From positions 1 through 64,000 of the forward strand of contig NZ_CANPVO010000019.1 of assembly GCF_947581785.1 (NCBI RefSeq): DNA of 64,000 nucleotides, written 5' to 3'. The notes under the pieces were generated by a model that saw only the letters and a program-made list of their open reading frames with translations, was not told the origin of the DNA and did no database searches. Shown piece by piece: positions 12,651 through 59,567 of the stretch (the first letter of the stretch is position 1; every line of letters starts with the position of its first letter). The position numbers were made by a program, and so were the translations under genes. Origin of the DNA: Candidatus Palauibacter polyketidifaciens (GTDB taxonomy: Bacteria; Gemmatimonadota; Gemmatimonadetes; Palauibacterales; Palauibacteraceae).

Positions 12651-13952
12651 TTACTGCTGCAGGCGGAGGACGAAGAGGCCCTCGTCCCAGCTCGACGCGA
12701 TGAAGATGCCGCTCTCGAACCAGGGGTAGGTCGACCAGGAGCCGTCGAAGTTCGTTTCGTTGTGCGCGGGCACGGTGTCGAAATACCCGGCCTCCATCGG
12801 GTTCGCGGGGTCCGAGATGTCGAGGATGCGCACGCCGAACGCGTAGTTGGAGTGGTAGATCAGGCTGCCGTGCACGTAGAGGTTGTGGTCGATCGCCTCG
12901 GTCGGGCCCAGATGCTCCTTGGCAAGAACCGGATCGTCGAGGTCGGCGAGGTCCCACACGAGCAGGCGCGTGCGAGAGACACGGTTGTTCCTCTCGTCGT
13001 TCTCGTCGTTCTGGTAGAAGTACCGGTGGTCCTCGCTGAGCCACCCCTGGTGGATGTAGTCGCGGTCGGCGTATGTGGCGGTCGACAGCGTCACCGGGTT
13101 CGCCTTGTCCGTCACGTCGGACACGACGATCGCCGTCTCGTTCGAACCGAAGCAGATCTCGCGGCCCGCGTGCTCCGCGTCCGGCCCCCGGTACACGACG
13201 CACTGGACGTCGTGCGTGTAGCCGCTGCCGCGGAACCCGGTCCCTTCCGCGGCATGGCAACCCGCGAAGGTCGGGCTCTTCGGGTCCGAGAGGTCGATCA
13301 TGTGCAGGCCGCCACCGCAGGTCTCGCCGCCGGAGTTGCTGCCGACGGCGTAGGCGAAGCCCGTCTCCTCGTTGATCGCGATGTTGTGGACCGCGCTCAC
13401 CTCCCGGTAGCGCGCGTCCGCCGCCAGTTCCGTGAACGCCGTGAGTCCGCGAAGCCGGGTGAGATCGAGGACCTGCATCCCGTGGCCCGTGATGTTGTCC
13501 GCGACGACGTAGGCGTGATCCTCGTACACCTTCATGTCGCGCCAGCCGCTGTGCGAGGTCGCCGAGGGCATGAAGGCGATGGGGCGCGGTTCGGTCGGGG
13601 TCGAGAGGTCGACGATGGCGAGCCCGTCGTGGCGGCCCACCAGCGCGTACTCCACGCCCGTCTGCGGGTCGGTCCACCCCCAGATGTCGTTCACGGCCCA
13701 TTGGTCCGCCGATCCCGCCGGCGTCCGTCCCGGGCTCAGGTCCGGCAGGGATACGTGCGCCGCGAGATCCACGCGGTCGCACGGGAACCCGGCGGCCGAG
13801 CCACCCGAGCAGGGCACGATCTGCGCCGCGACGGGAGGAGGCGGCGGCGGCTCGGGCGGATCGATCGGACCCGGATCGGGCGGACCGGTCGGGGGGTCCC
13901 CGCACGCGGCCGCCGCGACCGCCACGATGGCGAGCGCGGGGATGCGGCGCAT
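12651..13952 (-). CDS. Choice-of-anchor B / LVIVD-repeat lipoprotein
   Basis: 433 aa. The start MRRIPALAIVAVAAAACGDPP carries a lipobox (AAAC), then a Pro-rich linker, then an LVIVD-type propeller. Repeats recur as VDLSTPTEPRPI, VLDLTRLRG, MIDLSDPKSPTFAG, VSDVTDKANPV, WDLADLDDPVL and ILDISDPANPME. Cys residues in GGETCGGGLHMID and AGCHA may form disulfides. ATG 13952 shares one base with the preceding stop (TGATG), so this is the last gene of the five-gene operon from 21141. A longer paralog with an extra N-terminal propeller is at 37232-39580. Molecular role is unknown; the family is extracytoplasmic. Confidence 0.85.
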   Translation of the reverse strand: MRRIPALAIVAVAAAACGDPPTGPPDPGPIDPPEPPPPPPVAAQIVPCSGGSAAGFPCDRVDLAAHVSLPDLSPGRTPAGSADQWAVNDIWGWTDPQTGVEYALVGRHDGLAIVDLSTPTEPRPIAFMPSATSHSGWRDMKVYEDHAYVVADNITGHGMQVLDLTRLRGLTAFTELAADARYREVSAVHNIAINEETGFAYAVGSNSGGETCGGGLHMIDLSDPKSPTFAGCHAAEGTGFRGSGYTHDVQCVVYRGPDAEHAGREICFGSNETAIVVSDVTDKANPVTLSTATYADRDYIHQGWLSEDHRYFYQNDENDERNNRVSRTRLLVWDLADLDDPVLAKEHLGPTEAIDHNLYVHGSLIYHSNYAFGVRILDISDPANPMEAGYFDTVPAHNETNFDGSWSTYPWFESGIFIASSWDEGLFVLRLQQ

Positions 13953-15280
13953 CAGGGGCTCAGCAGGAGCCGCGGGCCCAGGAGGCGGGCCGGGTCCGCG
14001 TCCGGCTTCGGCGTGAACTTGTTGATCCAGCCTCCGCTGTAGGACGCGATATACAGGTTGCCGTCCTCGTCCATGTCCATCTGGTGTGGGAGCGAGAGGC
14101 CGCCAGGCCATATCCCGCGCCCGATGGCGCCGGCCGCCCCGTAGGCGCCCCAGTAGTCCTGGAGGACGCCGTCCCGATCGTACTTCAGGACGCGGTTCAG
14201 CGACGCGTCCAGGACCCACACGGCGCCCTGCTCGTCGAGCCAGATGTTCACGGGGTCGAAGATGTTCGGCCATTCCTCGATGAACTCGCCGTCGTGCGTG
14301 AACAGCTGGAGGCGCTCGTTCTGGCGGTCCCCGACGTAGACGCGCTCCTCGTCCGCCGCGAGGCCGTGCAGGAGATCGAATTCACCGGGTCCGGTGCCGA
14401 GCCCTCCCCACTGCATGATGAACTCCCCATCCTCCGAATACTTGATGATCCGCGAGTTCCAGTACCCGTCTGCGAGGAGGAAGCTCCCGTCCGGGAGGAA
14501 CGCGAGCTTGGACGGCCAGCCGTAGGTGTAGGGTCCCCAGTCGTCCCGGGCGCGGGCGGCTTCGCGCGTCTTCGGGTGATCCCGTTCGCCGAGGCGCATG
14601 ACGATCTCGCTGCCGTCGTTCGTGAACTTGACGACCTGCATGTGCCCTTCGCCGCCGCCGCTGTCGATGACCCACACGTGCCGGTCGGGGTCGTAGGGGC
14701 TGATGTACACCTGGTGCGGGAGGGTGAAGATCGAGTCCCACTGCGCCCACTGTTCCACGATCTCGCCGTTCCCGTTCGCGACGACGATGTAGTTCGTGCG
14801 GCGGAGGCGCCCCTCGCGGGGGACGGACCGGTCGGCGGGCCAGTCGCCGCGTGTGACGACGATGATGCGGTCCGCGTGGTCCACGGCGACGCCGGCCACC
14901 TGTCCCCAGCCCCATTCGTCGTCGTGGTCGGGCGCGGACTTCCACCAGCCGGCCACGGGATCGTAGGGTCCGGTGCGGTCGTCTCCCCCCTTCACGACAG
15001 CGCCGTTCGCCGTGTCCGCGGCCCGGCCCTCGCCGCCGCACGCCCAGGAGGCGGCCGCGACGGCGGCCAGCGCCCAAGTCGCGAACAGGCCCCCTCCCGC
15101 GCGTCTTTGCGGCGGTTCGGGTTCGCCCGACTCAGGACCGTCGCCGCCGATGGGCCCGCCAAACCGGGCACGGGAATCCTCCGCGCATTCCCAGCAAAGG
15201 AACGGGTTGGACCTTGGAAAACGCGCGACGTCCCCGCACCTGCGGCACAACCTTTCCGAACGCTTCGAGCCGTCAGCCAC
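13952..15280 (-). CDS. NHL/PAL-like beta-propeller with N-terminal zinc ribbon
   Basis: 442 aa from GTG 15280, overlapping the ankyrin gene by 8 nt. Residues about 12-32 hold two CxxC pairs (CRRC...CWEC), a zinc-ribbon pattern. Residues about 65-82 form one hydrophobic segment ending AAASWACGG, which resembles a lipobox. The rest is a six-bladed NHL propeller resembling peptidyl-alpha-hydroxyglycine alpha-amidating lyase: LPHQVYISPYD, GWPSKLAFLPDGSFLLADGY, NSRIIKYSEDGEF, VYVGDRQNERLQLF, VLKYDRDG. Either the ribbon is cytoplasmic and the propeller outside, or the real start is internal and this is a plain lipoprotein. I see no good internal start with a Shine-Dalgarno. Lyase activity is not demonstrated. 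Confidence 0.8.
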   Translation of the reverse strand: MADGSKRSERLCRRCGDVARFPRSNPFLCWECAEDSRARFGGPIGGDGPESGEPEPPQRRAGGGLFATWALAAVAAASWACGGEGRAADTANGAVVKGGDDRTGPYDPVAGWWKSAPDHDDEWGWGQVAGVAVDHADRIIVVTRGDWPADRSVPREGRLRRTNYIVVANGNGEIVEQWAQWDSIFTLPHQVYISPYDPDRHVWVIDSGGGEGHMQVVKFTNDGSEIVMRLGERDHPKTREAARARDDWGPYTYGWPSKLAFLPDGSFLLADGYWNSRIIKYSEDGEFIMQWGGLGTGPGEFDLLHGLAADEERVYVGDRQNERLQLFTHDGEFIEEWPNIFDPVNIWLDEQGAVWVLDASLNRVLKYDRDGVLQDYWGAYGAAGAIGRGIWPGGLSLPHQMDMDEDGNLYIASYSGGWINKFTPKPDADPARLLGPRLLLSP

Positions 15281-17222
15281 GTCTCTTCTCCTCGGTGGTT
15301 GTCCGCGCGGGGGCCCATGGGTCGTCGATGCCGGCGCCGGGGCACGAGTCGCCGGTGTCGAGGAAGTGCGTGTGGAGGCACTCGAGCGTCGCGCCGAGGC
15401 TCGTCAGCAGATCGACCGTCTCCGGGAACGGGACGCGGGTGAAGAACCCGGCCCGGCCGCCGCGCGCCATGTCCGCCGTGGACTGTCCGAGGCGGGTGAT
15501 CGCGGTGACGTCCCCGCCCCGTGACACGAGGTACTCGATCAGTTCGTTGTCGCCGCGCGAGGCGGCGTAGTGCATCGGCGTGTAGAGCCAGGAGTCGCGC
15601 TGGTCGACGTCCGCGCCGAGTTCCTCGATCAGGTACTTCACGGCGGGGATGAACTGGTCGGGCCGGTTGCGGACGCTGAACGCGCCCAGACCGAGATAGC
15701 CTCCGCCCGCGGCGGCGTGGATCGGCCACGCGTTGGGCGCGCCCTCGGGGATCCAGGGCAGGGCCGAGTCCTCCTGCTGGCGGCCGTCCTGCTGCCGACG
15801 CTCGCGCATCCCGACCTCGGGCCAGCGCGTCGGGATGTTCGGATCCGCGCCGTGCGCGACGAGCAGCCTCATCGCCTCGAGGTCCTGGGCGAAGGCCGCG
15901 CGCCAGAACGGCGTCGCCCCGGTGAGATCGACCCCCATCTTCGTGAGGCCGTATTCCCAGTACCACAGGTGCGTGTTGAGGCGCCGGTTGGGATCGGCCC
16001 CTGCTTCGAGCAGCGCGCGGAGCACGTCCATGTGCCCGGCGTCCTGCAGGTCCTGCGCGCGCGGCTGCGGGTAGTTGGACTTCGGCGCCCACTGCGTCTG
16101 GAGGACGGCGAAGAGGGGCGTGGCCCCGTCCGTCGAGGCGGCGAGGTCGGGGTCGGCCCCGCGCTCGATGAGGGCGAGCGCGAAGTCGAACTGGCCGTTG
16201 AGCGCCGCCATTAGGAGCGGGGTCGTGGCGTCCGCGCTCGCCTGGTCGATGTCCGCGCCGCCGTCGAGCAGGGCCGTGGCCGCTTCGATGTGGCCCTCGC
16301 GGGCCGCGTGCAGCAGCGCGGTCATCCCGCCGGTCCGGCCGACGAGCACCTCGCGGTACGGCGGACGGATGAGGTCGGGACCGCCCGGATAGTCGGGTCC
16401 CAGGCGGCCGAGCGAATGTGCGCTGACTTCGCCGACGTCGTAGCCGGAGCGGAGGAACTCGCGCTGGGCACGGATGGCCGCCTGCACACGGGCCGGGCCG
16501 GGCTCGCCCGGCCACTCGGCTTCGGGGTCGACCTCGGGCCCGTACGGTCCGAGCGTCTCCGGGGGCGCGCCGATCATGTCCCGCATGCGGCGGTTGGCTT
16601 CACGGTCCAGCGCCAGACTGGGCAGGACGTCGACCACGGCGGTCGCGATGCCGGGGTCGGCGCCGGCCTCGAGCAGCGCGGCCGCGGCGGCCGGCCGGTT
16701 CGCGGCGGCGGCGAACATCAGGGGGGTCTGCCCCGCCGACCCCTCCCGGGCGTTCGGATCCGCGCCGTGGTCGAGCAGCGCGGCCACGGCCGACCGGCCG
16801 TCCACGGCGGCGGCGGCGAGGTGCAGCGCGGTCACGCCGCTGTTCGTCGTCGCGGCGTTCGCGTCGGCCCCGGCCTCGAGCAGGAGCGCGACGACGGGCC
16901 CGTGCCCTCCGCGGGCAGCCAGGTGCAGCGGCGCATAGCGGCCGATCCGCGTCCCGGCGTCGACCGCCGCGCCCGCATCGATCAGCGCCCGGGCCGCGTC
17001 CGCGTGGCCGCGCTCGGCGGCGAAGTGCAGCGCCGTCACCCCGTCGCCCGGCGCCGCGTTCACGTCCGCGCCGTCCTTCACGAGCCCCCGCACGACCTCC
17101 ACAGCCCCATCGCGCGCGGCTTCGAGCAGGCGGTCGTCGGGGGAGGACGCTCCCTCCTGTGCGGCGGAGCCCGCCGGGAGGAGGGCCGACAGCACGAGCG
17201 CGACCGCGAAGCGCCGCCTCAT
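15273..17222 (-). CDS. Exported ankyrin-repeat protein (cassette 1)
   Basis: 649 aa with a Sec signal peptide (MRRRFAVALVLSALLPAGSAAQ). About ten ankyrin repeats follow, for example DGVTALHFAAERGHADAARAL, then APLHLAARGGHGPVVALLLEA, TALLHAAREGHIEAATALL, TPLLMAALNGQFDFALALIE and TPMHYAASRGDNELIEYLV. Two long non-repeat inserts interrupt them, with ATPFWRAAFAQDLEAMRLL between. The C-terminus carries VPFPETVDLLTSLGA and a Cys pair. It overlaps the DUF1552 stop by 4 nt (ATGA) and the next gene by 8 nt. The protein at 53891-55663 shares the same layout. Ankyrins bind proteins; the likely partners are the co-encoded exported DUF1592 and DUF1552 proteins (inference). Confidence 0.88.
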   Translation of the reverse strand: MRRRFAVALVLSALLPAGSAAQEGASSPDDRLLEAARDGAVEVVRGLVKDGADVNAAPGDGVTALHFAAERGHADAARALIDAGAAVDAGTRIGRYAPLHLAARGGHGPVVALLLEAGADANAATTNSGVTALHLAAAAVDGRSAVAALLDHGADPNAREGSAGQTPLMFAAAANRPAAAAALLEAGADPGIATAVVDVLPSLALDREANRRMRDMIGAPPETLGPYGPEVDPEAEWPGEPGPARVQAAIRAQREFLRSGYDVGEVSAHSLGRLGPDYPGGPDLIRPPYREVLVGRTGGMTALLHAAREGHIEAATALLDGGADIDQASADATTPLLMAALNGQFDFALALIERGADPDLAASTDGATPLFAVLQTQWAPKSNYPQPRAQDLQDAGHMDVLRALLEAGADPNRRLNTHLWYWEYGLTKMGVDLTGATPFWRAAFAQDLEAMRLLVAHGADPNIPTRWPEVGMRERRQQDGRQQEDSALPWIPEGAPNAWPIHAAAGGGYLGLGAFSVRNRPDQFIPAVKYLIEELGADVDQRDSWLYTPMHYAASRGDNELIEYLVSRGGDVTAITRLGQSTADMARGGRAGFFTRVPFPETVDLLTSLGATLECLHTHFLDTGDSCPGAGIDDPWAPARTTTEEKRRG

Positions 17223-18643
17223 CGCGCGCCGCTCCCCGAGGCCGCTTCGCCCGTGAATTCGAGCGGGAGGATCCCGTCGCTGTCGCCGAAGGTGGCCATC
17301 TCCGGGTGTCCGATCTTCCGCATGAGGCTCACGAACGCGTTCGCCATCGGGGTTCCGTCCGGGGCCCGCAGATGGACGCCGCCCTCGAGCGCCCCGTTCG
17401 CCCCGCCCATGATCAGCAGCGGGGCCCGCCGGTGGTTGTGGAGGTTCCCGTCCGCCATCGGCGACCCCCACACGATCGCCGTCTTGTCGAGCAGCGACGC
17501 GTCGCCCTCCACCGTGTCCCGCATTTTTTTCAGGAAATAGGCGACCTGCCCCAGCCGGTACGTGTTGATCCGGTTGAAATCCATGATGTCCTCGGGGACG
17601 TTCCCGTGGTGCGAGGCCCCGTGGACGGACTTCGTCGTCCCGCTCTCCGGGAAGGTCCGGTTGGATTGATCGAAGCCGGTCTTGAAGGTGATGACGCGCG
17701 TGAGGTCGGTCTGCAGCGCGAGCAGCTGCAGGTCGAACATCAGCTGCATGTGCTCCTCGAAGGAGTCGGGGACCCCGGAGGGCGCCTCCGGCATCTCCCG
17801 TTCCTCCCCGCTCGAGTTGCGCGCCTCGACGAGCTGGATCCGGCGCTCGATCTCGCGGATGTGCTCGACGTATTCGTCCAGCGCGACCCGGTCCGCCGCG
17901 CCCAGCGTCCTGCGGAGCCGGGCGACCTCGGTCGCGATCCAGTCGATCATGCTGCGGTCCGTGCGGCGCCGCGCCGCCCGGTCCTCGGCCGAGTCCCCGG
18001 CCCCGAACAGGCGTTCGAACACGACGCGCGGCTCCCGGATCGCCGGCAGCGGCTGGTTCGGCGACGCCCACGCGAGCGACGTCGTGTACGCACAGTGGTA
18101 GTTGTACGCACAGCCCCCACCGCGATCGATGCCCTCGATGCAGAGTTCGAGCGAGGGGAGCACGGTCTCGCGCCCGAACCGCTGCGCGTGCAACTGGTCG
18201 AGCGAGGTGCCGAGGAAAATGTCGGAGCCCTGCGTCTGCTTCGGATGCGCCTGGGTGAGGAACACCGCCGTCGACCGGTCGTGGTCGCCGCCGATCTCCT
18301 CCGCCCGGAACGCTTCCGCCGAGCGGCAGTCCGTGTTGCTCACGATCGTCGTGTACTCGCGGAACGCCTCCAGCGGCTTGAGCTGGCTGTCCGCCACGAG
18401 TTCGAAATCGCGGCCCGGCGTCGCGGGCGCGAACAGGTGACGTTCGTCGCCCCAGTCGCTCGAACCCGCCACCCCCATCGACTCCTCGATGCAGACGAGG
18501 CGCGTGAACTCCGCCGCCTTCATCGGGTCGGCCCAGAGCCGCCCCGCGGGGACCATCGCGTCGAGCAGCGGCAGCGCGACGCTGGCGCCGGCCCCCCGAA
18601 GGAAGGTGCGGCGCGAGAGGTGTGTACCGGTGATGAAGTTCAT
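17219..18643 (-). CDS. DUF1552 protein with Tat signal (cassette 1)
   Basis: 474 aa. The twin-arginine motif SRRTFLRGAGASVALPLLDA lies in the first 30 residues, so the folded protein is exported by Tat. DUF1552 features follow: FLTQAHPKQTQGSDIFLGTSLDQLHA, HHGNVPEDI, AIVWGSPMADGNLHNHRRAPLL and GGANGALEGGVHLRAPDGTPMAN. The His-rich NLHNHR and the DR and HH pairs could hold metal, and the fold resembles alkaline-phosphatase-superfamily DUF1501-like proteins (inference). It overlaps the DUF1592 gene by 4 nt. The family almost always sits beside DUF1592 genes and has no established function. Confidence 0.9.
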   Translation of the reverse strand: MNFITGTHLSRRTFLRGAGASVALPLLDAMVPAGRLWADPMKAAEFTRLVCIEESMGVAGSSDWGDERHLFAPATPGRDFELVADSQLKPLEAFREYTTIVSNTDCRSAEAFRAEEIGGDHDRSTAVFLTQAHPKQTQGSDIFLGTSLDQLHAQRFGRETVLPSLELCIEGIDRGGGCAYNYHCAYTTSLAWASPNQPLPAIREPRVVFERLFGAGDSAEDRAARRRTDRSMIDWIATEVARLRRTLGAADRVALDEYVEHIREIERRIQLVEARNSSGEEREMPEAPSGVPDSFEEHMQLMFDLQLLALQTDLTRVITFKTGFDQSNRTFPESGTTKSVHGASHHGNVPEDIMDFNRINTYRLGQVAYFLKKMRDTVEGDASLLDKTAIVWGSPMADGNLHNHRRAPLLIMGGANGALEGGVHLRAPDGTPMANAFVSLMRKIGHPEMATFGDSDGILPLEFTGEAASGSGAR

Positions 18644-21141
18644 GAGCCTGCTCCACTTCTCGTGCGGTCGTCCGCCACCTCCTCGTCGTCCACGGTGGGC
18701 GCGGGACGCGCCATCCGGAAGGGGTCGCTATTAACGACGCCGAGGATGAACGAGGACAAGCGGTAGTCGTTGGCTTCCGCTTCGCGTGCGATGGCCCGGA
18801 TCCCGGGCTGGTCGAAGTATTCCGCGCGGCGTCCCGTCGCGTACGCGAGCAGGTGCGCGGTGAAGTTCCGGACGAGCGGGATCGGCCGCTTCATGAGGAC
18901 GTGGACGAGCTCCGCCGGCGTGCTCACGTCGGTCCCGTCGTAGAAGGTCCCTCGCGTGTCGAGCGCGACGCCGTTCTCGCGAACCCGCACCCGCCCCGTC
19001 ACGTCGTAGTTGTCGAGCGCGAGCCCGATCGGGTCCATGAACCGGTGGCAGGCGCGGCACGTCGGGCTGGCCGCGTGCATCTCCAGCCGCTCCCGCGTCG
19101 TCAGCAGCCGCCCCGACCGGGCCGATTCGGTGTCGTCGAAGGCGGGTATGTTGGGCGGCGGGGGCGGGGGCGGCGTGCCCATGAGCACCTCCATCACCCA
19201 CTTGCCGCGCAACACCGGCGACGTGCGCGCGGACATCGAGGTGAGGAGCAGCACGCTCCCGTGCCCCAGCACCCCGCGCCGGCTGTGGTCCGGATAGGTC
19301 ACCCGCCGGAACTCGGGTCCCGAGACCCCCGGGATCCCGTAGTGGCCGGCGAGGCGCTCGTTCAGGAAGGTGTAGTCCGCCGTGAACAGCTCGAGTAGAC
19401 TCCGGTCCTCCCGGACGAGGTAATCGAAGAGGAACTGCGTCTCCCGGACCAGGTCCTCGCGAAGCTGACCGGTGAAGTCCGGGTAGAGGTAGGGCTCGGG
19501 CTGGTTGTCCTCCGCGTCCTGGAGCCGCAGCCACTGCGAGGCGAAGCGCGTGGAGAGCGCCTCCGCGCGCGGGTCCGCGAGCATCCGCCGCACCTGCGCC
19601 TCGAGGACCGCCGGATCCGAGAGCCGTCGCTCCGCGGCCAGCGTCAGTAGTTCGTCGTCCGGGCTCGCCGCCCAGAGGAAGAAGGAGAGGCGCGAGGCGA
19701 GGTCCACGTCCGCGATCGGGTAGCTCTCGCCGGGCGCGATTTCGGACGGCGCCTGCTCGAGACGGAAGATGAAGGAGGGGTTGGCGAGGATCGCCTGGAG
19801 CGCGGTCCGGACCCCGATCTCGAAGCCGTCCTCTGACGCGGCATCATCGTAGAAGGCCATGGGTCCCGCGAGATCGTCCTCCGTCACCGGCCGCCGGTAC
19901 GCCGCTCGCGCGAGCCGGGTCACGATCGCCTCCGCGCACGCCCGAGCCTCCGCCGGCGCAACCGACGCCTCCGCCTCCGCTGTCTCCGCCGGCCCAGCCT
20001 GACCGGGATGGCAGTGGAAGATCTTCCGCCGACTCGCCGTCTCGGAGAGTCCGGAGCTGCGGCGGGGACCCGTGATCATCAGGTCGCTCAGGTGGGGGAG
20101 CGCGGTGATCCCGTAGTTCGCCCACGCCTGGGAGTCCTCGCCTCCGACGAAGGACCAGCCCGGCGTCTTCAGGCGGTCCTCGTACGGTCCCTCGATCGTG
20201 CGCACGAACGCGGCCGCGACCTGGCGCTGGCCCGCCTTCACGAAGATGGGCTCCGTGCGGATCGGCACCGTCGAGCGCCCGCCGTGCTCGAGGCCAAGAA
20301 GGGCGACCCCCTCCCCGCCGATCGAGATGTCGACGTCCTGGAAGCCGGTCCCCTGCCCGAAGAGCGTCTCGATCGAGACTACGTACTCTCCGTCCACCGG
20401 GAAGTCGTGGGTTACGACCATCCCGCCGCGGGTCCCGTACGGCGTGCCCTCGATGTGATCCCAGGCGTGCTGCGAGACGTCGATCGGGTTCGTGTACTTG
20501 GCGGTCTTCGAGAGGGCGGACGGGTTGCCGACCGCGATCCGGCTCACCTCCGTAGCGGCCCTCAGGTAGGCCTCGAGGAGGGTGGTCGAGAGGCCCTGCG
20601 CGTCCGACATGTTGTCGAAGGCGCCGAGGTAGGTGTCCGCCGGAAGCCAGCGGCTGGCGTCGATCTCGAGGTCGAGGAGATCGCGGATGACGCGCTCGTA
20701 CTCGGCCCGGTTCAGCCGCTGAAAGCGCCGTGAGCCGGGGTTCCGGTCGCGGGCGGCCTCGCGGTCGACGACGGTCTCGAGCGCCTCGACGAGGGCGAGG
20801 AGCGTGTCCGGCGAGGGCCGGCGCTGGCCGGGCGGCGGCATCATCCCCGCGCGGAGCTTCCGGATCATCTTCTCCGCCGTGGGGGCCCGGTCGTGCGCCG
20901 CCTCCACGGCGAACGTCTCCAGCGTGAGGTTCCCGCGCAGGAGGCGCTCGTTGTGACAGCGGACGCAGTAGCGCTGGACGACCGCCGTCAGATCCGCCGT
21001 GTCCGCGAGGGCGGCCGCGTAGGCCGACGCAGCGGAGGTTTGCTCAGGGAGCGGGCCGGCGCGGGACGCACGGTCCCCCGAAGGCTGCCCCGTGAGAGCC
21101 AACCACAGCCACAGAACCGCACCCGCACTCAGTGTCTTCAC
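18640..21141 (-). CDS. DUF1592-type dihaem cytochrome-like protein (cassette 1)
   Basis: 833 aa from GTG 21141, with a signal peptide (KTLSAGAVLWLWLALTGQ). A CxxCH haem motif, CVRCH, lies at residues 59-63 in a PSCyt1-like region, and a second, CRACHRFMDPIGLALDNYD, near the C-terminus. In order: haem region; DUF1587-like (RRFQRLNRAEYERVIRDLL); a carbohydrate-binding-like beta domain; DUF1595/1592 (YRRPVTEDDL, RLSFFLWAASPDDELL, ADPRAEALSTRFASQWLRL); DUF1588 (GVLGHGSVLLLTSMSARTSP, RGKWVMEVL); DUF1585. These multidomain proteins are known mainly from Planctomycetes and relatives. It is the first gene of the five-gene operon; the paralog is at 57054-59567. Periplasmic or surface redox function is inferred from the haem motifs. 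Confidence 0.9.
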   Translation of the reverse strand: MKTLSAGAVLWLWLALTGQPSGDRASRAGPLPEQTSAASAYAAALADTADLTAVVQRYCVRCHNERLLRGNLTLETFAVEAAHDRAPTAEKMIRKLRAGMMPPPGQRRPSPDTLLALVEALETVVDREAARDRNPGSRRFQRLNRAEYERVIRDLLDLEIDASRWLPADTYLGAFDNMSDAQGLSTTLLEAYLRAATEVSRIAVGNPSALSKTAKYTNPIDVSQHAWDHIEGTPYGTRGGMVVTHDFPVDGEYVVSIETLFGQGTGFQDVDISIGGEGVALLGLEHGGRSTVPIRTEPIFVKAGQRQVAAAFVRTIEGPYEDRLKTPGWSFVGGEDSQAWANYGITALPHLSDLMITGPRRSSGLSETASRRKIFHCHPGQAGPAETAEAEASVAPAEARACAEAIVTRLARAAYRRPVTEDDLAGPMAFYDDAASEDGFEIGVRTALQAILANPSFIFRLEQAPSEIAPGESYPIADVDLASRLSFFLWAASPDDELLTLAAERRLSDPAVLEAQVRRMLADPRAEALSTRFASQWLRLQDAEDNQPEPYLYPDFTGQLREDLVRETQFLFDYLVREDRSLLELFTADYTFLNERLAGHYGIPGVSGPEFRRVTYPDHSRRGVLGHGSVLLLTSMSARTSPVLRGKWVMEVLMGTPPPPPPPNIPAFDDTESARSGRLLTTRERLEMHAASPTCRACHRFMDPIGLALDNYDVTGRVRVRENGVALDTRGTFYDGTDVSTPAELVHVLMKRPIPLVRNFTAHLLAYATGRRAEYFDQPGIRAIAREAEANDYRLSSFILGVVNSDPFRMARPAPTVDDEEVADDRTRSGAGS

Positions 21142-21241: not shown

Positions 21242-22438
21242 TCATACGGCGCGGACAGCTCGCTCCAGCCCCTGTCCTGGGTGCAGGCGGGTGAGAAAGT
21301 CCCCTACCGGCAGGCACAGGATGTCGCGCACGGCAAGCCGCTCCGTGCCACGGTACAGAAGCACGCGGCGCGCGTCCGGGTATTCTGTGCCGAAGGCCGC
21401 CAGACCTCGCAGGTCCTCGGGCCGTATGCGGTCGGAGTTCTTCACCTCGAACGCCCAGATCCCGTCCGCGCCGTAGAGCACGAAGTCCACTTCCACTCCG
21501 GAGCGCGTGCGCCAGTAGTAGAGTCGGGCGTCGACTCCGGAATATGCCAGCCACGCCCGAAGGTGCTGTGCAACGAGCCCCTCAAGCGCGGGGCCGCCGA
21601 TCTCCTCGGGCCGGTCGAACGGGCCTGCCGGTCGCAGGCTCCTGAAGATGCCGCAGTCGAAGTAGAAGAACCTGGGGTGCGCCGCGAGCCGGCGTTTGGC
21701 ACGCCGGGTGAACACGGGCAGGCGGAAGGCGAGCAGGAGATCCTCGAGCAGCTCCAGGTATCCTGCGACGGTCGTTCGGCTCGTCTCGCACTCGCGCGCG
21801 ACCGCGCTCACGTTGAGCGTCGTACCGTGCGAAAAGGCCGCCGCCTCCAGGAAGCGCGAGAAGCTGCCGACGTCGCGGGCCAGTCCCTCCGCGCGCACTT
21901 CCTGCTCGAGATAGAGCGCCGCATAGGCAGCGAGTGCCGACTCCGGATCCTGCGAGGAGAAGACCGCGGGAACGGTTCCGAGCCTCAGACACGTCTCGAG
22001 ATCGAAGCGGCGTCCCGCTTCGCCGGCGACCTCCCCCGCCGTCATTTCCCCGGCCATGAAGGGATGCATGGAGCGCATTGCGGCGCGGCCCGCCAGGAGG
22101 TTCACGCCGCCGCGCCGAAGCTTGCGGGCGCTCGAACCCGTGAGGACGAACCGATATCCTCGCGCGGACTCCATGAGGTCATGGACGACGTTCAGCAGTT
22201 CCGGGACGCGCTGGATCTCATCGATGACCACGTCGCTTCTCGCCGGAGTTGCCAGCACCAGTTCGCGCAGACGTTCGGGACGGGCGGCCAGCCGGCGATA
22301 CTCCTCCGGCTTCAGAAGGTCCACTACGAGAGCGTCCGGCAGCGTCGAGGCCAACCAGGTGGTCTTGCCGGTCCCGCGCGGGCCGAAGAGGAAGAAGCTG
22401 CTCCGCGGAAGCGCGAGGAATCGCGGCAGTGTCGTCAT
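21242..22438 (-). CDS. AAA+ ATPase of the DUF4143 type
   Basis: 398 aa from ATG 22438 (MTTLPRFLALP...); a TTG at 22450 is in frame but lies in the upstream palindrome. Walker A GPRGTGKTTW near residue 25, Walker B SDVVIDEIQRVPEL, sensor-like LTGSSARKLRRGGVNLLAGRA, a winged-helix segment (NVSAVARECETSRTTVAGYLELLEDLL), and a C-terminal DUF4143 nuclease-like region with the GVEVDFVLYG...FEVKNS pattern (D...ExK). Such single-gene ATPases are common accessory genes of uncertain function. A 10-bp inverted repeat directly upstream suggests self-regulation. Confidence 0.88.
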   Translation of the reverse strand: MTTLPRFLALPRSSFFLFGPRGTGKTTWLASTLPDALVVDLLKPEEYRRLAARPERLRELVLATPARSDVVIDEIQRVPELLNVVHDLMESARGYRFVLTGSSARKLRRGGVNLLAGRAAMRSMHPFMAGEMTAGEVAGEAGRRFDLETCLRLGTVPAVFSSQDPESALAAYAALYLEQEVRAEGLARDVGSFSRFLEAAAFSHGTTLNVSAVARECETSRTTVAGYLELLEDLLLAFRLPVFTRRAKRRLAAHPRFFYFDCGIFRSLRPAGPFDRPEEIGGPALEGLVAQHLRAWLAYSGVDARLYYWRTRSGVEVDFVLYGADGIWAFEVKNSDRIRPEDLRGLAAFGTEYPDARRVLLYRGTERLAVRDILCLPVGDFLTRLHPGQGLERAVRAV

Positions 22439-22447
22439 AATGCGCGT

Positions 22448-22474
22448 CAAAATGACGATAGAACCGTCATTTTG
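22448..22474. promoter_or_regulatory. Inverted repeat upstream of the DUF4143 ATPase
   Basis: CAAAATGACG and CGTCATTTTG form a perfect 10-bp inverted repeat around a 7-nt spacer, beginning 10 nt upstream of the ATPase ATG. It is AT-rich against GC-rich surroundings and reads with a TTGACA element on the minus strand. A repressor site, perhaps bound by the winged helix of the ATPase itself, is inferred. Confidence 0.5.
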
Positions 22475-22547: not shown

Positions 22548-23795
22548 CTACCGGCGGCCGGCGGGTACCAGTCGCACGATGCCGGTCGGGGGGCCGTCCA
22601 CGTCCCGCGTCTCCCCGTCGATGGCGAGGTAGATGAACCCGTCGGGTCCCTGGCGGACGTCGCGGATGCGGCCGATCCCCTCCAGCAGGGTCTCTTCGTG
22701 GGTCACCTCGCGGCCCTCCATCCGCAGCCGGGCGAGGCGCCGCCCGCTGAGGCCGCCGACGAGCATGTCGCCGCGCCACTCGGGGAACGCGTCCCCCGTG
22801 TAGAAGAGCATCCCGGAGACGCCGATGGAGGGGACCCAGATGTGCTCCGGCGGCTCCATCTCCTCCATGAGGGTCCCCGAGTGGATGCGCGAGCCCGTGC
22901 GGTAGTTCACGCCGTACCCGACGACGGGCCAGCCGTAGTTGAGCCCCGGCTCGATCAGGTTCAGTTCGTCGCCGCCCTGCGGGCCGTGCTCGTTCTGCCA
23001 CAGGTCGCCCGTCTCCGGATGGACCGCCATCCCCTGCGCGTTCCGGTGACCCCACGTCCAGATCTCGGGGTGGATCTCCTCGTCGCCCACGAAGCCCGCG
23101 AACGGGTTGTCCTCGGGTACGCGTCCGTCGTCGTGGATGCGGATCGTGCTGCCGTTGTGGTTCGAAAGGTTCTGGGCGGGGTGCGCCTCCAGTTCGCCCG
23201 CCGGGGGCCACTGCCGGTCGCCCAGCGTCATGAACAGGTAGCCGTCGTGGTCGAAGACGAGCCGCCCGCCCCACATCGAGCTGCGCTCCGTCCCGTTCCC
23301 GGGCGCGTCCGCGTGGAACAGTTCCTCGACGTCGCTCAGGCGGTCGTCCTCGAAGCGGCCGCGGGCGATCGCGATCGTGCCCAGCGAATCGGGCCCCGGC
23401 TTCACGTAGCTCAGGTAGAGGAGCCGGTTCGTCGCGAAATCCGGGTGCAGGATCGCGTCGCGCAGACCCGCCTGCTCGAAGCCGGCCATCGAACGGGCGC
23501 CGCGCCCGAGCGCCCGGATCGGTGGCAGGCCCTCCACGGAGTCCGGGAGCAGGACGCCGTCGCGGATGATGCGGAGCCGGCCGGGACGTTCCGTCACGAG
23601 GAGGTCGCCCTCGGGCGTGAAGGCGATCGAGAACGGGCGCACGAGCCCGTCCGCCACTTCCTCGACCCGGAAGTCGTGCAGCGCGGTCTGGATAACACCG
23701 CCGTCGTCACCCGCCGGCTCTCGGCCACCAGGGGCGCACGCGGCGACGGCCAAGAGCAATACGACGAGGAAGCGGGAGGCGCGGGGATGGTTCAT
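22548..23795 (-). CDS. PQQ-dependent sugar dehydrogenase lipoprotein
   Basis: 415 aa. The start MNHPRASRFLVVLLLAVAACAPG has a lipobox (AVAAC). The propeller carries motifs of soluble glucose/aldose dehydrogenases: RPFSIAFTPEGDLLVTERPGR, GLRDAILHPDFATNRLLYLSY, TLGDRQ, HRNAQGMAVHPETGDLWQNE and HGPQGGDELNLIEPGLNYGWP. These oxidise aldoses with PQQ and pass electrons to the respiratory chain; no PQQ synthesis gene is in the window. ATG 23795 is preceded directly by one copy of the 31-bp direct repeat (23799-23829), and no clear Shine-Dalgarno is left. Confidence 0.88.
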   Translation of the reverse strand: MNHPRASRFLVVLLLAVAACAPGGREPAGDDGGVIQTALHDFRVEEVADGLVRPFSIAFTPEGDLLVTERPGRLRIIRDGVLLPDSVEGLPPIRALGRGARSMAGFEQAGLRDAILHPDFATNRLLYLSYVKPGPDSLGTIAIARGRFEDDRLSDVEELFHADAPGNGTERSSMWGGRLVFDHDGYLFMTLGDRQWPPAGELEAHPAQNLSNHNGSTIRIHDDGRVPEDNPFAGFVGDEEIHPEIWTWGHRNAQGMAVHPETGDLWQNEHGPQGGDELNLIEPGLNYGWPVVGYGVNYRTGSRIHSGTLMEEMEPPEHIWVPSIGVSGMLFYTGDAFPEWRGDMLVGGLSGRRLARLRMEGREVTHEETLLEGIGRIRDVRQGPDGFIYLAIDGETRDVDGPPTGIVRLVPAGRR

Positions 23796-23798
23796 CCG

Positions 23799-23829
23799 GG
23801 GATCGTCCGTCCGTGTCTGGGGAGTCATT
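23799..23829 (+). repeat. 31-bp direct repeat, copy 1
   Basis: These 31 bases are identical to 24486-24516 in the same orientation. Copy 1 covers the stop codon of the YafQ-like toxin and the leader of the PQQ dehydrogenase gene. The two copies bracket the DinJ-YafQ module exactly. Confidence 0.9.
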
Positions 23830-53890: not shown

Positions 53891-55663
53891 TCAGCAGGAG
53901 ACGCAGCGGTGGTTGTTCTTCGCCCCCAGACTCTCGAGCAGAGCGATCGTCTCCGGGAACGGCTGCACGCGCTGCACCGGCCCGTTGGCCAGGTCGACGG
54001 TCGTCTGGCCGTTGCGGGCCACGAGCGTCACGTCGGCGCCCTGCTCGACGAGATAGAGGATCATCTCGTTGTCGCCGCGCGAGGCGGCGTGGTGGGCGGG
54101 CGTGTAGCCGTTGTGGTCGCGCGCGTTCACGTCGGCGCCGAGCTCCTCGACGAGGAACTTCATGGCGGGGAGCCAGCCGTCCGGTATATGGCGGTGGGAA
54201 TTGCCGGCGAAACCCTGCCCGTAGCCGACGCCGGCCGCCGCATGGATGGGGTGGACGGCCGGACCGCCGACGGGGATCGGGTCGAGACCGGAGTGATCGA
54301 TGTTGTCTCCGCCGCGGCGGTAACGCCGCTCCGGAACCTTCGCCGTCGGAGTCGCGGCATCGGCACCGTATTCGAGGAGCAGCTTCATGGCTTCGATGTC
54401 GAGCGCGTGCGCGGCCCGCCAGAAGGGCGTGGCGCCGGTGCGGTCGACGCCGAGCAGGTCGCGGTTGTACGTCGTGAACCAGAGCGACTTCTTCAGCCGC
54501 GGGTTCGGATCGACGCCCGCTTCGAGCAGCGTGCGCATCACGTCGAGGTACGACCACTCCTGCTGGTGCACGTCGGTGGGCTGCGGGTGCCGGGCCTTCG
54601 GCGCCCAGTGCATGTTGAGCGCCGCGTAGAGCGGCGTGGCGCCGGCGTCGCTCGCGAGGTTGGGATCGGCGCCGCGCGCGAAGAGTTCCATCGCGAGATC
54701 GAAGTGTCCGTTGATCATCGCGATGAGCAGCGGGGTCGTGTCGTCCGCGGCGCTCCGCTGATCGATGTCCGCACCCTTGTCGAGCAGGACCAGCGCCGCG
54801 TCGCGATGGCCCTCGCGGGCCGCGAGCAACAGCGCCGTCAACCCACCGTGCGTGCCGACGAGGTCGGCGTAGTTGCCCAGGCAGCCGGAGCAGGTGGGCT
54901 CCTCGGGGTCCTCGAGCCGCACGGTCTGGAGGCCGGGGCCGGGGCCGGCGGTGGGCTTGGGGGCGGCTTCGCGCCGTGACGGGGCCGGCGGCGTACGGCC
55001 GGCCCGGAGCGCGGCCACGCGGGCATTGCGTTCGCGGCGGTCGAGCTGGTCCCACGCGTCCCGGGCGACGATGTCGAGCACGTACGCGGTGAGCGAGGCG
55101 TCGGCCCCCGCGTCGATGAGGGCACTCACCGAGCCGGCGCGGCCCGCCGCCGCGGCGAACATGAGCGGCGTCTGGCCCCATTCAGGCTCCCGGGCGTCCG
55201 CATCGGCGCCGTGGCGCAACAGCGCCTCAACCGCCTCCGGCGACCCGGCCGAGGCCGCGAAGTGCAGCGCGGTCGCGCCGGTCGAGGTCGCCGCGTCCGC
55301 GTCCGCTCCCGCCTTCAGCAGCGCCCCTACAAGCAGACCGTGTGCCGCCCGGCTCGCTACGTGGAGCGGCGTGTGCCCGCCCAGCCGCGTGCCCGCCTCG
55401 AGGTCCGCGCCCGCGTCGATCAGCACCTCGGCCACGTCGAGCCGCCCCTTCATCGCGGCCCAGTGGAGTGCCGTCATGCCGTCGCCCAGGGCGCCGTTCA
55501 CGTCCTCGCCCGCGACGAGCAGCGACCGCACGGCGTCCAGGTCGCCGCGCATGGCCGCATCGGCCACCGGAGCATCCGGCCCGGTCGGCGACCCGGCCGG
55601 CGCCGCCGCCCCCAGCGCGAGCAGCGCCGCGGCCGCGAAGACGATCGATCGCGCGCGCCGCAT
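53891..55663 (-). CDS. Exported ankyrin-repeat protein (cassette 2)
   Basis: 590 aa from ATG 55663, sharing one base with the DUF1552 stop (TGATG). The signal peptide is RSIVFAAAALLALGAAAPAG. About ten ankyrin repeats have the same order and inserts as the protein at 15273-17222: DGMTALHWAAMKGRLDVAEVL, in part, TPLHVASRAAHGLLVGALL, TALLLAAREGHRDAALVLLD, TTPLLIAMINGHFDLAMELF, ATPFWRAAHALDIEAMKLL, PAHHAASRGDNEMILYLV, and VQPFPETIALLESLGA at the end. Cys pairs (CSGC in the middle, CVSC at the C-terminus) may form disulfides. It ends the second cassette; no NHL or LVIVD gene follows here. Confidence 0.88.
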   Translation of the reverse strand: MRRARSIVFAAAALLALGAAAPAGSPTGPDAPVADAAMRGDLDAVRSLLVAGEDVNGALGDGMTALHWAAMKGRLDVAEVLIDAGADLEAGTRLGGHTPLHVASRAAHGLLVGALLKAGADADAATSTGATALHFAASAGSPEAVEALLRHGADADAREPEWGQTPLMFAAAAGRAGSVSALIDAGADASLTAYVLDIVARDAWDQLDRRERNARVAALRAGRTPPAPSRREAAPKPTAGPGPGLQTVRLEDPEEPTCSGCLGNYADLVGTHGGLTALLLAAREGHRDAALVLLDKGADIDQRSAADDTTPLLIAMINGHFDLAMELFARGADPNLASDAGATPLYAALNMHWAPKARHPQPTDVHQQEWSYLDVMRTLLEAGVDPNPRLKKSLWFTTYNRDLLGVDRTGATPFWRAAHALDIEAMKLLLEYGADAATPTAKVPERRYRRGGDNIDHSGLDPIPVGGPAVHPIHAAAGVGYGQGFAGNSHRHIPDGWLPAMKFLVEELGADVNARDHNGYTPAHHAASRGDNEMILYLVEQGADVTLVARNGQTTVDLANGPVQRVQPFPETIALLESLGAKNNHRCVSC

Positions 55664-57054
55664 CAGTCCGCCGCCTCCGCGAAGGAGAACGACCCGGTGC
55701 TGTTCCCGAAGCTCGTCATGTCGTCCATCCCGAGCCGATGCATGAGGCTCAACATCACGTTCGCCATCGGCGTCCCCGGCGCGGCCCGCAGGTGCAGGTT
55801 GCCCTCCATCCTTCCGTGCGCGCCGCCCACCACGAAGAGCGGGCACCGCTTGTGGTTGTGCACGTTCGGATCCCCCATCGGCGACCCGTAGACGATCATC
55901 GTCTTGTCGAGCAGGTGCGTGTCCCCCTCCATCGACTCCTTCAGGCGGTCGAGGAAGTACGGGACGAGCCCGACGTGGTAGCGGTTGATCTGCGCGAAGT
56001 CCGTGATGTTGTTCTCGTTGTCACCGTGGTGCGATGCCGGATGGAAGCCGTTGTCGATCCCGCTCTCCGGATAGACCCGCCCCGACGCGTCCCGTCCCAT
56101 CTTGAACGAGAACACGCGCGTCATGTCCGCCTGGAACGCGAGCGCCTGCAGGTCGAACATCAGCTTCACGTGCTCGTCGAACGAATCGGGCACGCCCGCC
56201 GGCGCCTCCGGAAGGTCCCGGTTCTCGCCGGACTCGTTGCGCGCCACGACCCGCTGGATACGGCGCTCGATCTCCCGCACGTTCTCCAGGTAGCGGTCCA
56301 TGCGCTGCCGGTCGGAAGGATCGAGCCGGCCCTTCAGGCTCGCGACCTCGCCGGTGAGGAAGTCGAGGATGCTGGCGCTCGAGCGCTGCCGCGCCGCACG
56401 CGCCTCCGGCGTCCCGCCCGCCCCGAAGAGCTGGTCGAAGGCGACCCGCGGATCCCGGATCATCGGAAGCGGCTGCGTCGGCGACGACCAGCTGATCGTG
56501 TCCGTGTAAACGCACGCGTACCCGTACGCGCAGCCCCCCGCCTGGTCGACGTTCTCGATGCAGAGCTGCATGGACGGGATCGGCGTGTCCTGCCCGAACC
56601 GGTTCGCGTACAACTGGTCCATCGAGGTTCCCACGAAGACGTCCGAACTCTCCGTCTGTTTCGGATGCGCCTGGGTGAGGAACGTCGCGCTCGACCGGAA
56701 GTGGTCGCCCCCGATTTCCTTCGGCTGTCTGGCTTCGGCCGGCTCGACGTCCGTATCGCTGATGATCGTGAGAAGATCCCGGTACGGCTCGAGCGAACTC
56801 AACGCGGTCGGCGACAGGTCGAACGCCCGGCCCGTCGCCGCGGGAGACCAGTAGTTCTGCGCCGCCCCGAACCCGCTGCTGCCCGCCGAGCCATGCACCA
56901 TCTCGATGCAGACGAGCCGCGTCGGATCCGCGACCTCACGCGCCCACAGCCGGCCCGCCGGCACCATCGCGTCGAGGAGCGGCAGAGCGACGGTCGCCCC
57001 CGCGCCTCGCAGGAACGTGCGGCGAGAGAGGTGTTTCCCTGTGATGAACTCCAT
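55663..57054 (-). CDS. DUF1552 protein with Tat signal (cassette 2)
   Basis: 463 aa from ATG 57054, which shares one base with the DUF1592 stop. The start MEFITGKHLSRRTFLRGAGA is nearly the same as in cassette 1 and carries the Tat motif. Conserved stretches include FLTQAHPKQTESSDVFVGTS, PLPMIRDPRVAFDQLFG, HPASHHGDNENNITDFAQIN, IVYGSPMGDPNVHNHKRCPL and GAHGRMEGNLHLRAAPGTPM. It differs from cassette 1 in the middle third, so it is a diverged paralog, not a recent duplicate. Confidence 0.9.
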   Translation of the reverse strand: MEFITGKHLSRRTFLRGAGATVALPLLDAMVPAGRLWAREVADPTRLVCIEMVHGSAGSSGFGAAQNYWSPAATGRAFDLSPTALSSLEPYRDLLTIISDTDVEPAEARQPKEIGGDHFRSSATFLTQAHPKQTESSDVFVGTSMDQLYANRFGQDTPIPSMQLCIENVDQAGGCAYGYACVYTDTISWSSPTQPLPMIRDPRVAFDQLFGAGGTPEARAARQRSSASILDFLTGEVASLKGRLDPSDRQRMDRYLENVREIERRIQRVVARNESGENRDLPEAPAGVPDSFDEHVKLMFDLQALAFQADMTRVFSFKMGRDASGRVYPESGIDNGFHPASHHGDNENNITDFAQINRYHVGLVPYFLDRLKESMEGDTHLLDKTMIVYGSPMGDPNVHNHKRCPLFVVGGAHGRMEGNLHLRAAPGTPMANVMLSLMHRLGMDDMTSFGNSTGSFSFAEAAD

Positions 57055-59567
57055 CAGTCCTCCTGGGATCCCTGGCTTTCCGCCCCCATGTCGTCGACCA
57101 CGGCCTCGGTCCCCTTCAGCCGGAAGGCCGGGCTGTTGACCACGCCGAGGATGAACGCGGACATGCGGTGGTCCTGTTCGGCGGCCTGCCGCGCGATGGA
57201 CCGCACGGTCGGCATGTCGTAGTAATCGACCCGCCGGCCCAGCGCGTAGGCGAGCAGGTTCTCCGTGAACGCGCGCACGAGCGGCACCGGCCGGGCCAGA
57301 AGCGCCGCGCGCAGGTCCGCCGCGCTCGTCACCGGCGTGCCGTCGTAGAGTTCGCCCTGCGCCTCGATCGGCCTTCCGCTGTCCTTGATGCGCCGCGCCC
57401 CCGTCCCGTCGAAGTACTCCAGCGCGAGACCGATCGGGTCGATCACGCGGTGGCACGAACGGCAAGCCGGGCTCGCGCGGTGCATCTCCAGCCGCTCCCG
57501 CACCGTGAGCAGGCGGCCCTCCTCCGCCTCCGGCGTCGCCTCCAGATCGGAGACATCCGGCGGGGGCGGAGGCGGGGGCGTCCCCAGCAGCACCTCCATC
57601 ACCCACTTCCCTCGCAGCACCGGAGACGTCCGGCTCGCGTGCGAGGTGAGAGTGAGGACGCTGCCGTGCCCCAGCACGCCGCGGCGCTCCCGTTCAAGGA
57701 TCTCGATCCTGCGGAAATCCGTTCCCGTCACGCCGGGGATGCCGTAGTGCCGCGCCAGGCGCTCGTTCACGAACGTGTAATCGGCCGTCAGCAGTTCGAG
57801 CAGGCTCCGGTCCTCCTGCACCAGCGTGTGGAAGAGGAGTTCCGTCTCGCGGTGCATCGCCTCCTTGAGCTGCTGGTCGAAGTCCGGATAGAGGCGGACG
57901 TCGGGGTTCATGCCCTCGAGGTCCTGCAGCCGGAACCACTGTCCCGCGAAACGCGTGGCCAGCGCCTCGGCGCGCGGATCCGCCAGCATGCGGCGCACCT
58001 GCACGTCGAGCACCGCCGGGTTGGAGAGCCGACCCTCCGCGGCAACTGCCAGCAGTTCGTCGTCGGGGCCCGTGGCCCAGAGGAAGAAGGAGAGCCGCGA
58101 GGCGAGATCGTAGTCGTCCAGCGCGTACACCCCGTCCGCCTCGCGCGCGGGACGTTCCTCGAACCGGAAGACGAAGTGCGGGCTGGCGAGAATCCCCTCC
58201 AGCGCGAGCCGGATCCCTTCCTCGAACCCGCCCGCTCCCGCCCCGGCGCGGTACAGGTTCATGAGCGCGGCGACGTTGTCGTCCGTCAGCGGCCGGCGGT
58301 AGGCCCTCGTCCCCAGCCGCGAGAGGATCGCTTCCGCACACCGGACCTCCTCCTCGGGCGTGGAGGGACGGCACGAGAACACGCGCTCGCGGCTCGGCGT
58401 GGACGACATCCCCGCCGGGGCGAAGGGCCCCGTCACCGCGAGGTCACGCAGGTGCGGCAGCGTCGTGAACCCGTACGCGTCCGTGATGCTCGTGCTCGCA
58501 ATCGACCAGTCGTGCGGCGACATCAGATCCTGCGACGGCCCCTCGAAGGTGCGGATGAAGGCGGCCGCCACCCGGTGCGGACCCGCCTCGATGAACACGG
58601 GATCCGTCCGGAGGTTCACACCGTCGGGATCGGAGACGTGCATCCAGCGGTCGATGTCGAGGAGCGCGACCCGCTCGCCGTCGACCGAGATCTCGATCCG
58701 TTCGGGCTCGTCCGTCGTGTGCAGCGCGCCCTTCCCGTTCCCGAACAGGGCGCCGGTCGTCTCGTGATGGAAGGAGACGCGGAAGGCGTACTCCCCGTCG
58801 GCCGGGAAGTTGTGGTCCACCGCGACGCCGCCCCGGCTCCCGTACGGCGTGCCCTCGACGTGCTCCGCCTGTGAGGTCCAGCGCGACACCCGGAAGGTGG
58901 CCTCGCTCGGCGTGACCTCCGGGTCGCCGATCGCGAGCCGGCTGATCTCGCTCGCCGCGCGCAGATACCCGTCCATCAGCGTCGGGGAGAGCAACTGCAC
59001 GTCGGCGATGTTGTCGAAGTTCGCGCTCTTCGTATCGAGCGGCAGATAGTCGCCGGCGTCGATGTCCAGGTCGAGGAGATCGTAGATGGAGCGCGAGTAC
59101 TCGGCCCGGTTCAGGCGCTGGAAGGTCCGCCGTCCGGGGTTCGGGTTCGCCTCCCATGCCGCGTCGAGGCGGGACTCAAGGACGGCCGCGAGCGTGCGCA
59201 GGCTGTCAGGGGTCGGCCGGCGGACGCCGACCGGCGGCATCATCCCGGCCCGCAGCTTCCGCACCATCCGCTCCGCGATCACGGCATTGTCGGAGGCCGA
59301 CGTCACCTCGAAGGTTTCGAGCGACATGCCCCCGCTCACCCGCCTGGGGTTGTGGCAGCGCATGCACGTTCCGGCCACGACCGCCTGGGCCGTTTCGACG
59401 GAGAGCGTGTCGACGGAGGGAGCCGATGTCGGCGCGGTCAGCGGTGCGATCGGCTGCGGCCAACTGGCCGGGGGATGTTCGGCACCCCGCGCCCCGTCGG
59501 CCTCCTGACCGATGGCTGAACTCGGGAGAACACCCGCTGCAACCAGCAGCAAGAGCGATGTTCGCAT
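57054..59567 (-). CDS. DUF1592-type dihaem cytochrome-like protein (cassette 2)
   Basis: 837 aa from ATG 59567 (signal MRTSLLLLVAAGVLPSSAIGQ). Haem motif CMRCH at residues 68-72 and CRSCHRVIDPIGLALEYFD near the C-terminus. Domain order equals cassette 1: RRTFQRLNRAEYSRSIYDLL, a beta carbohydrate-binding-like region, YRRPLTDDNVAALM, RLSFFLWATGPDDELL, ADPRAEALATRFAGQWFRL, GVLGHGSVLTLTSHASRTSP, RGKWVMEVLLGTPPPPPPP. AGAGG precedes the ATG. It is first in its operon. Function is unknown; export and covalent haem are predicted. Confidence 0.9.
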   Translation of the reverse strand: MRTSLLLLVAAGVLPSSAIGQEADGARGAEHPPASWPQPIAPLTAPTSAPSVDTLSVETAQAVVAGTCMRCHNPRRVSGGMSLETFEVTSASDNAVIAERMVRKLRAGMMPPVGVRRPTPDSLRTLAAVLESRLDAAWEANPNPGRRTFQRLNRAEYSRSIYDLLDLDIDAGDYLPLDTKSANFDNIADVQLLSPTLMDGYLRAASEISRLAIGDPEVTPSEATFRVSRWTSQAEHVEGTPYGSRGGVAVDHNFPADGEYAFRVSFHHETTGALFGNGKGALHTTDEPERIEISVDGERVALLDIDRWMHVSDPDGVNLRTDPVFIEAGPHRVAAAFIRTFEGPSQDLMSPHDWSIASTSITDAYGFTTLPHLRDLAVTGPFAPAGMSSTPSRERVFSCRPSTPEEEVRCAEAILSRLGTRAYRRPLTDDNVAALMNLYRAGAGAGGFEEGIRLALEGILASPHFVFRFEERPAREADGVYALDDYDLASRLSFFLWATGPDDELLAVAAEGRLSNPAVLDVQVRRMLADPRAEALATRFAGQWFRLQDLEGMNPDVRLYPDFDQQLKEAMHRETELLFHTLVQEDRSLLELLTADYTFVNERLARHYGIPGVTGTDFRRIEILERERRGVLGHGSVLTLTSHASRTSPVLRGKWVMEVLLGTPPPPPPPDVSDLEATPEAEEGRLLTVRERLEMHRASPACRSCHRVIDPIGLALEYFDGTGARRIKDSGRPIEAQGELYDGTPVTSAADLRAALLARPVPLVRAFTENLLAYALGRRVDYYDMPTVRSIARQAAEQDHRMSAFILGVVNSPAFRLKGTEAVVDDMGAESQGSQED

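Follow-up and report, generated by a model that had tools for sequence, protein, structure and literature searches.

Do five genes that overlap at every junction encode a single machine? This question is raised by a gene cluster on the minus strand, at positions 12651-21141 of a 64,000-nucleotide stretch of contig NZ_CANPVO010000019.1 from Candidatus Palauibacter polyketidifaciens (Gemmatimonadota); the whole stretch is referred to here as the window. An original prediction, made from the sequence alone, had described the cluster as one surface or periplasmic machine. In the order of transcription, the genes (g1 to g5) encode a PSD3-PSD5-PSD4(DUF1592)-PSCyt3-PSD2 protein of 833 aa with a Sec-like signal and two CxxCH motifs (18640..21141), a DUF1552 (HXXSHH) protein of 474 aa with a Tat-type signal (17219..18643), an ankyrin-repeat protein of 649 aa with a Sec-like signal (15273..17222), an NHL propeller of 442 aa that resembles PAL, peptidyl-alpha-hydroxyglycine lyase (13952..15280, start codon uncertain), and a choice-of-anchor B/LVIVD propeller of 433 aa (12651..13952). 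The last two are putative lipoproteins. All further features given by coordinates also lie on the minus strand.

The five open reading frames are intact, and the overlaps are those originally described, namely 4 nt (18640-18643), 4 nt (17219-17222), 8 nt (15273-15280) and 1 nt (13952). The 8-nt overlap of g3 and g4 hinges on a GTG start of g4, the N-terminus of which varies among relatives; the alternative start is a TTG in frame at codon 11. The product identities, DUF1592, DUF1552, ankyrin, NHL and LVIVD/choice-of-anchor B, were backed by Pfam and NCBIfam profiles, applied with their family cut-offs. Export or anchoring signals had been claimed for every product: all look exported, but the lipoboxes of the propellers g4 and g5 are plausible rather than canonical. 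Scans for promoters and terminators detected nothing that exceeded shuffled sequence.

A three-gene core

The core of the cluster is a triad, DUF1592-DUF1552-ankyrin. Among 80 relatives collected by DUF1552 similarity, DUF1592 lies beside DUF1552, or one SusCD pair away, in 79, and an ankyrin gene is present in 78, both exceptions running off contig ends. Twenty further loci were picked by their DUF1552 domain in other Gemmatimonadota genomes, mostly as top-scoring rather than random choices. All 20 contain DUF1592 and ankyrin genes, the latter directly downstream (17/20), downstream past an intervening gene (1/20) or divergent (2/20). The overlaps are not due to chance, since short gaps recur at the same junctions in relatives, with a called gap of ≤10 nt at 42/57 DUF1592/DUF1552 and 35/64 DUF1552/ankyrin junctions. 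Tight and conserved coupling was thus confirmed, but the recurring unit has three parts and not five. Conserved synteny, suggested as a check on the five-gene machine, holds for the triad (78/80 relatives), whereas the NHL gene varies in placement and the LVIVD gene is limited to the Palauibacter clade.

Four DUF1592 genes are present in the window's genome, each followed by DUF1552 and ankyrin genes, and the only g3 homologues below 1e-20 in this genome are the four triad ankyrins. A second triad lies within the window itself, comprising a DUF1592 protein (57054..59567), a DUF1552 protein (55663..57054) and an ankyrin protein that ends in CVSC (53891..55663), with 1-nt overlaps at both junctions. 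This triad (53891-59567) has no propellers; it was absent from the original prediction, as was the GSDH gene described below.

Other phyla were represented by plasmid loci and similarity-selected relatives only. A Novosphingobium plasmid has the same triad order with overlaps, at 40% identity. On a Planctomyces plasmid, DUF1587-DUF1592-DUF1552 occurs with no adjoining ankyrin gene. In two Sphingobium plasmid loci (L160, L161), the genes downstream of DUF1592-DUF1552 encode cytochrome c or c' and cytochrome b/b561, in place of an ankyrin protein, and a TonB receptor gene lies nearby. Locus L161 is from a TomTYG strain, sampled in Kyoto; the tomatine paper (PMC10653915) makes no mention of DUF or TonB genes. 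Ten Acidobacteriota rows group as a single clade within the Gemmatimonadota rows of the DUF1552 tree. Their triads are ~80-91% identical to that of the window, and a flanking QueG-like gene shares 48% identity with its best match in the window's genome. These values suggest that the triad may have been transferred between Gemmatimonadota and Acidobacteriota, the labels and binning of the metagenome-assembled genomes being uncertain. Transfer into Gammaproteobacteria was mostly discounted: locus L033 has flanking genes in common with contigs of Gemmatimonadota, and several bins labelled Gammaproteobacteria group with BD2-11, which we take to be Gemmatimonadota. The Pseudomonadales rows look genuine.

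The proteins of the triad

Tentatively, and as a possibility somewhat short of probable, we read the triad as a periplasmic redox or processing module that acts on imported substrates of a sugar-like kind; the ankyrin protein would be its dedicated partner. In g1, the PSD3, PSD5, PSD4, PSCyt3 and PSD2 domains all score above their Pfam cut-offs (64.8-151.4 bits versus 23-34). The two CxxCH haem motifs that had been noted in the first product are present as CVRCH (residues 59-63, 20953..20967) and CRACH (residues 695-699, 19045..19059), each invariant in 41 homologues. Together with the Sphingobium gene pairs that are followed by cytochromes c/c' and b561, these invariant motifs argue for the redox side of the reading. 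The structure model of g1 (predicted local distance difference test, pLDDT, 78.9) contains a beta-sandwich at residues ~210-360 (approximately 20062..20514) that weakly resembles carbohydrate-binding modules (CBMs) of the CBM6/35/36 type (best E 4.6e-3, TMt up to 0.64). The domains of g1, and their pairing with DUF1552, are the same as in the PSCyt3/PSD and DUF1552 proteins, a pairing first noted in Planctomycetes and Verrucomicrobia. The difference is the ankyrin third gene with its cysteine pair, which the Planctomyces locus lacks and which a full-text search of the open literature found in no paper. The same search revealed no paper that joins DUF1592 to DUF1552 or to ankyrin, and the papers on these families singly gave no function.

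The DUF1552 protein g2 (278.6 bits against its profile, cut-off 30) carries a Tat motif. Within its HGASHH motif (residues 341-346, 17606..17623), H, S, H and H are invariant in 43 homologues, and the DxNxH residues are invariant as well. Cys178 and Cys184 are likewise conserved in all 43, a possible disulfide or metal site. When the g2 model was compared using Foldseek, sulfatases were the best matches (E 7.5e-5 and 4.8e-4), followed by many carrageenan sulfatases. The g2 sequence has no Cys or Ser in a formylglycine motif (C/S-x-P/A-x-R), and a hand alignment to the sulfatase motif places an invariant His, H121, at the nucleophile position. The modelled fold of g2 resembles that of sulfatases and alkaline phosphatases, with an invariant His-rich site in a protein that has no formylglycine motif.

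This resemblance raises the alternative of a hydrolytic module. DUF1552 would then be a metal-dependent sulfate or phosphate ester hydrolase of the sulfatase/alkaline-phosphatase superfamily, DUF1592 a binding scaffold with structural or regulatory haems, and the ankyrin protein a regulator or stabiliser. The Foldseek ranking and the invariant HxxSHH and DxNxH residues are in keeping with hydrolysis, and so is the finding that sulfatases adjoin PSCyt genes elsewhere; in Verrucomicrobia, PSCyt genes of unknown function are often located near sulfatases, some being fused to CBMs, and PSCyt3 genes usually lie beside a family of unknown genes (PMC5615132). However, the histidine aligned in place of the formylglycine-type nucleophile weighs against such an enzyme, and DUF1552 is paired with a haem-motif protein at nearly every locus, in Sphingobium also with cytochromes c' and b561. 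We consider a hydrolytic module unlikely.

Under the redox or processing reading, we propose that g3 may act as a dedicated assembly or cofactor partner of the triad. g3 is an ankyrin protein with a signal-like N-terminus, from which alone its export was judged, and is encoded beside a haem-motif protein. Its C-terminal stretch CLHTHFLDTGDSC (15342..15380) contains Cys615 and Cys627. In an alignment of 87 full-length triad ankyrin partners, this pair of cysteines near the C-terminus is invariant (87/87), and exactly two cysteines occur past residue 45 in 79 of them. The pattern C-x2-THF-x(1,2)-TGD-x-C is matched by 72/87; the remaining 15 terminate in a motif of the CxxC type. Ankyrin proteins encoded beside catalases are reported, in a review, to promote catalase activity or haem binding (PMC10294975), and this precedent, along with the invariant pair, underlies the proposed role. 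AnkB/KatB and Cj1386/KatA are alike in that a periplasmic-type ankyrin protein is encoded beside a haem protein; they differ in the partner, which is here a predicted c-type cytochrome-like DUF1592 protein plus DUF1552 and not a catalase.

The same precedent could be taken further, with the ankyrin and di-haem proteins forming a periplasmic peroxide or haem-trafficking pair like AnkB/KatB and Cj1386/KatA, to which DUF1552 would be accessory. Besides the activity of catalase-operon ankyrins (PMC10294975), the conserved haem motifs and cysteine pair would fit oxidative-stress or haem handling. Yet the Pfam/NCBIfam domain scan detected no catalase or peroxidase domain in g1, and the recurrent neighbours that were scanned include SusCD, transporters and a GH-type gene, with no peroxide genes among them, which makes this explanation very improbable.

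The propeller genes and the block within the genus

In contrast to the triad, g4 and g5 proved to be accessory in nature. g4 aligns to the PAL structure 3fvz_A across the propeller (residues 126-423, E 3.2e-16), and the alignment takes in the RGD and LPH stretches. NHL relatives that are placed upstream or divergent have Trp instead of the RGD Arg. The remaining positions of the catalytic Arg/His/Tyr set of PAL were judged in g4 by general PAL motifs only. PAL activity of g4 is thus a lead, not a result. Differences from PAL are that g4 is a putative lipoprotein, that its RGD Arg is not kept in all relatives and that the cassette has no PHM partner; the domain scan revealed no PHM monooxygenase among the five genes. 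A CxxCH-bearing, monooxygenase-like gene beside another triad (L005:12685-14160) was dropped as a PHM link, as it had no Pfam/NCBIfam match. g5 scores 446.9 bits against TIGR04312 (choice-of-anchor B, LVIVD), far above the cut-off of 100. The name of this model assigns no function, and g5 differs from the general family in being translationally coupled to g4.

The NHL gene follows the ankyrin gene in the window's clade and in L081, precedes DUF1592 in L035 and L044, lies upstream also in L078, is divergent in Pseudomonadales and is absent elsewhere. With NHL states labelled by hand on the DUF1552 tree, the placement or presence of g4 changes at least eight times; the NHL gene recurs beside the triad but shifts in position. 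Downstream of the NHL gene, HlyD-type and MacB/FtsX-type transporter genes occur in L016, L017, L018 and L048, and a gene of family c42 in L016, L018 and L048; the copy scanned (L016) encodes a BlaR1-type peptidase M56 with a propeller segment. Only in loci of the Palauibacter clade does the LVIVD gene adjoin the cassette, and there it is often present twice in tandem. Five g5 paralogues are located elsewhere in the window's genome, and g5-type paralogues of ~48-66% identity occur elsewhere, including in genomes that lack the cassette. An open frame of 25,291 aa beside one LVIVD paralogue turned out to be a 72-kb run of N.

Within the genus, by comparison, the block behaves as one accessory unit. 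Among 17 genomes, g2 orthologues (≥95% identity) were found in ten, in 11 copies. g4 orthologues occur in the same ten genomes, in 11 copies and on the same contigs as g2, so that the two are jointly present or jointly absent in 17/17 genomes. g5 orthologues occur in the same ten genomes and share the contig of g2 in 10/11 copies. The block is missing from seven genomes, one of them labelled as the same species, which keep other DUF1552 paralogues. In genome G123, of the same species, the contig stops exactly at window position 24366, and no clean empty site could be demonstrated.

Both patterns bear on the alternative of operon hitch-hiking, in which the triad is one functional unit, whereas g4 and g5 would be carried along by translational coupling and serve unrelated functions. 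The repeated changes of g4 on the tree, the five g5 paralogues and the restriction of cassette-adjacent g5 to the Palauibacter clade are what hitch-hiking would produce. The concordance of g2 and g4 across the genus, with g5 in the same ten genomes, and the recurrence of NHL genes beside triads in several clades would not be expected of it, and unrelated cargo seems to us fairly improbable. Relatives that carry the genes apart, named at the outset as evidence against one machine, were encountered for g4 and g5, which counts in part against it; within the genus the block stays together.

Neighbouring genes and a proposed mechanism

The carbohydrate side of the redox or processing reading draws on gene neighbourhoods as well as on the weak CBM-like match. 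A gene of the GSDH family, similar to soluble pyrroloquinoline quinone (PQQ) dehydrogenases, is located upstream of the cassette (22548..23828), separated from it by a DUF4143/AAA ATPase gene (21242..22450) that is not conserved there. In L016, L017 and L048, 52-94 nt separate GSDH from the downstream DUF1592 gene; the distance is larger in the window and in four other relatives. The slot between both genes varies, being empty or occupied by an LRR/Big_2 protein or ATPase gene; in genome G071, an LRR-type protein gene follows GSDH in place of the cassette. In nine loci (L053, L058, L062, L064-L067, L069 and L077), SusC and SusD genes separate DUF1592 from DUF1552; a DUF608/GH116-type gene is located upstream in seven of these loci. 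SusCD polysaccharide utilisation loci are known in Gemmatimonadota (PMC10469786). The nine relatives resemble these in having SusC and SusD inside the triad operon, and the window's operon differs in having no SusCD of its own. SusCD in the operon, the GH116-type gene, GSDH adjacency and the occurrence of PSCyt genes near sulfatases all point to carbohydrates.

From these lines of evidence we infer the redox chemistry, substrate class, ankyrin role and electron route of the following scheme. g1 would be a c-type cytochrome-like protein with two predicted haem sites and a CBM-like domain, and g1 and g2 would act jointly to convert a substrate that enters via TonB/SusC-type receptors and is probably a saccharide or glycoconjugate. 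Electrons would exit through the g1 haems to the respiratory chain. g3 may help g1 or g2 to fold, to load cofactor or to keep thiols reduced, like the catalase ankyrin partners, with its invariant cysteine pair as the putative functional tip. The operon of the Palauibacter lineage would in addition have acquired two accessory lipoproteins, first the PAL-like propeller g4 and then the choice-of-anchor B propeller g5.

Several observations weigh against this scheme. The N-terminal cytochrome domain of g1 falls under the Pfam cut-off (24.1 versus 27), its CBM-like match has an E value above 0.001, and the structure model of g2 is mediocre (mean pLDDT 70.6). The divergent ankyrin partners L133-L136 and the Novosphingobium one have no Cys pair, and the DUF1592 homologue from Sphingobium has 551 aa, fewer than g1. 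The nine SusCD loci represent one clade and one gain on the tree, and the SusC/SusD pair is absent from the window's own five-gene cassette. A bolder version holds that the triad represents a novel type of periplasmic oxidoreductase that acts on saccharides after import. Its DUF1592 cytochrome and catalytic DUF1552 protein would require the ankyrin protein as a chaperone, the conserved C-terminal Cys pair of which would handle haem, metal or thiols, and Palauibacter would add a PAL-like lyase for this same substrate. This version we regard as rather unlikely.

At their last description in the open literature (PMC5615132), cytochromes of the PSCyt/DUF1592 type and the genes next to them were still without a known function. 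A near-strict three-gene unit with a specific Cys-pair ankyrin protein provides a defined complex to purify, and SusC/SusD within the same operon in some relatives indicates a substrate class to test. The presence or absence of the block in one genus of marine, often sponge-associated bacteria offers natural comparison genomes.

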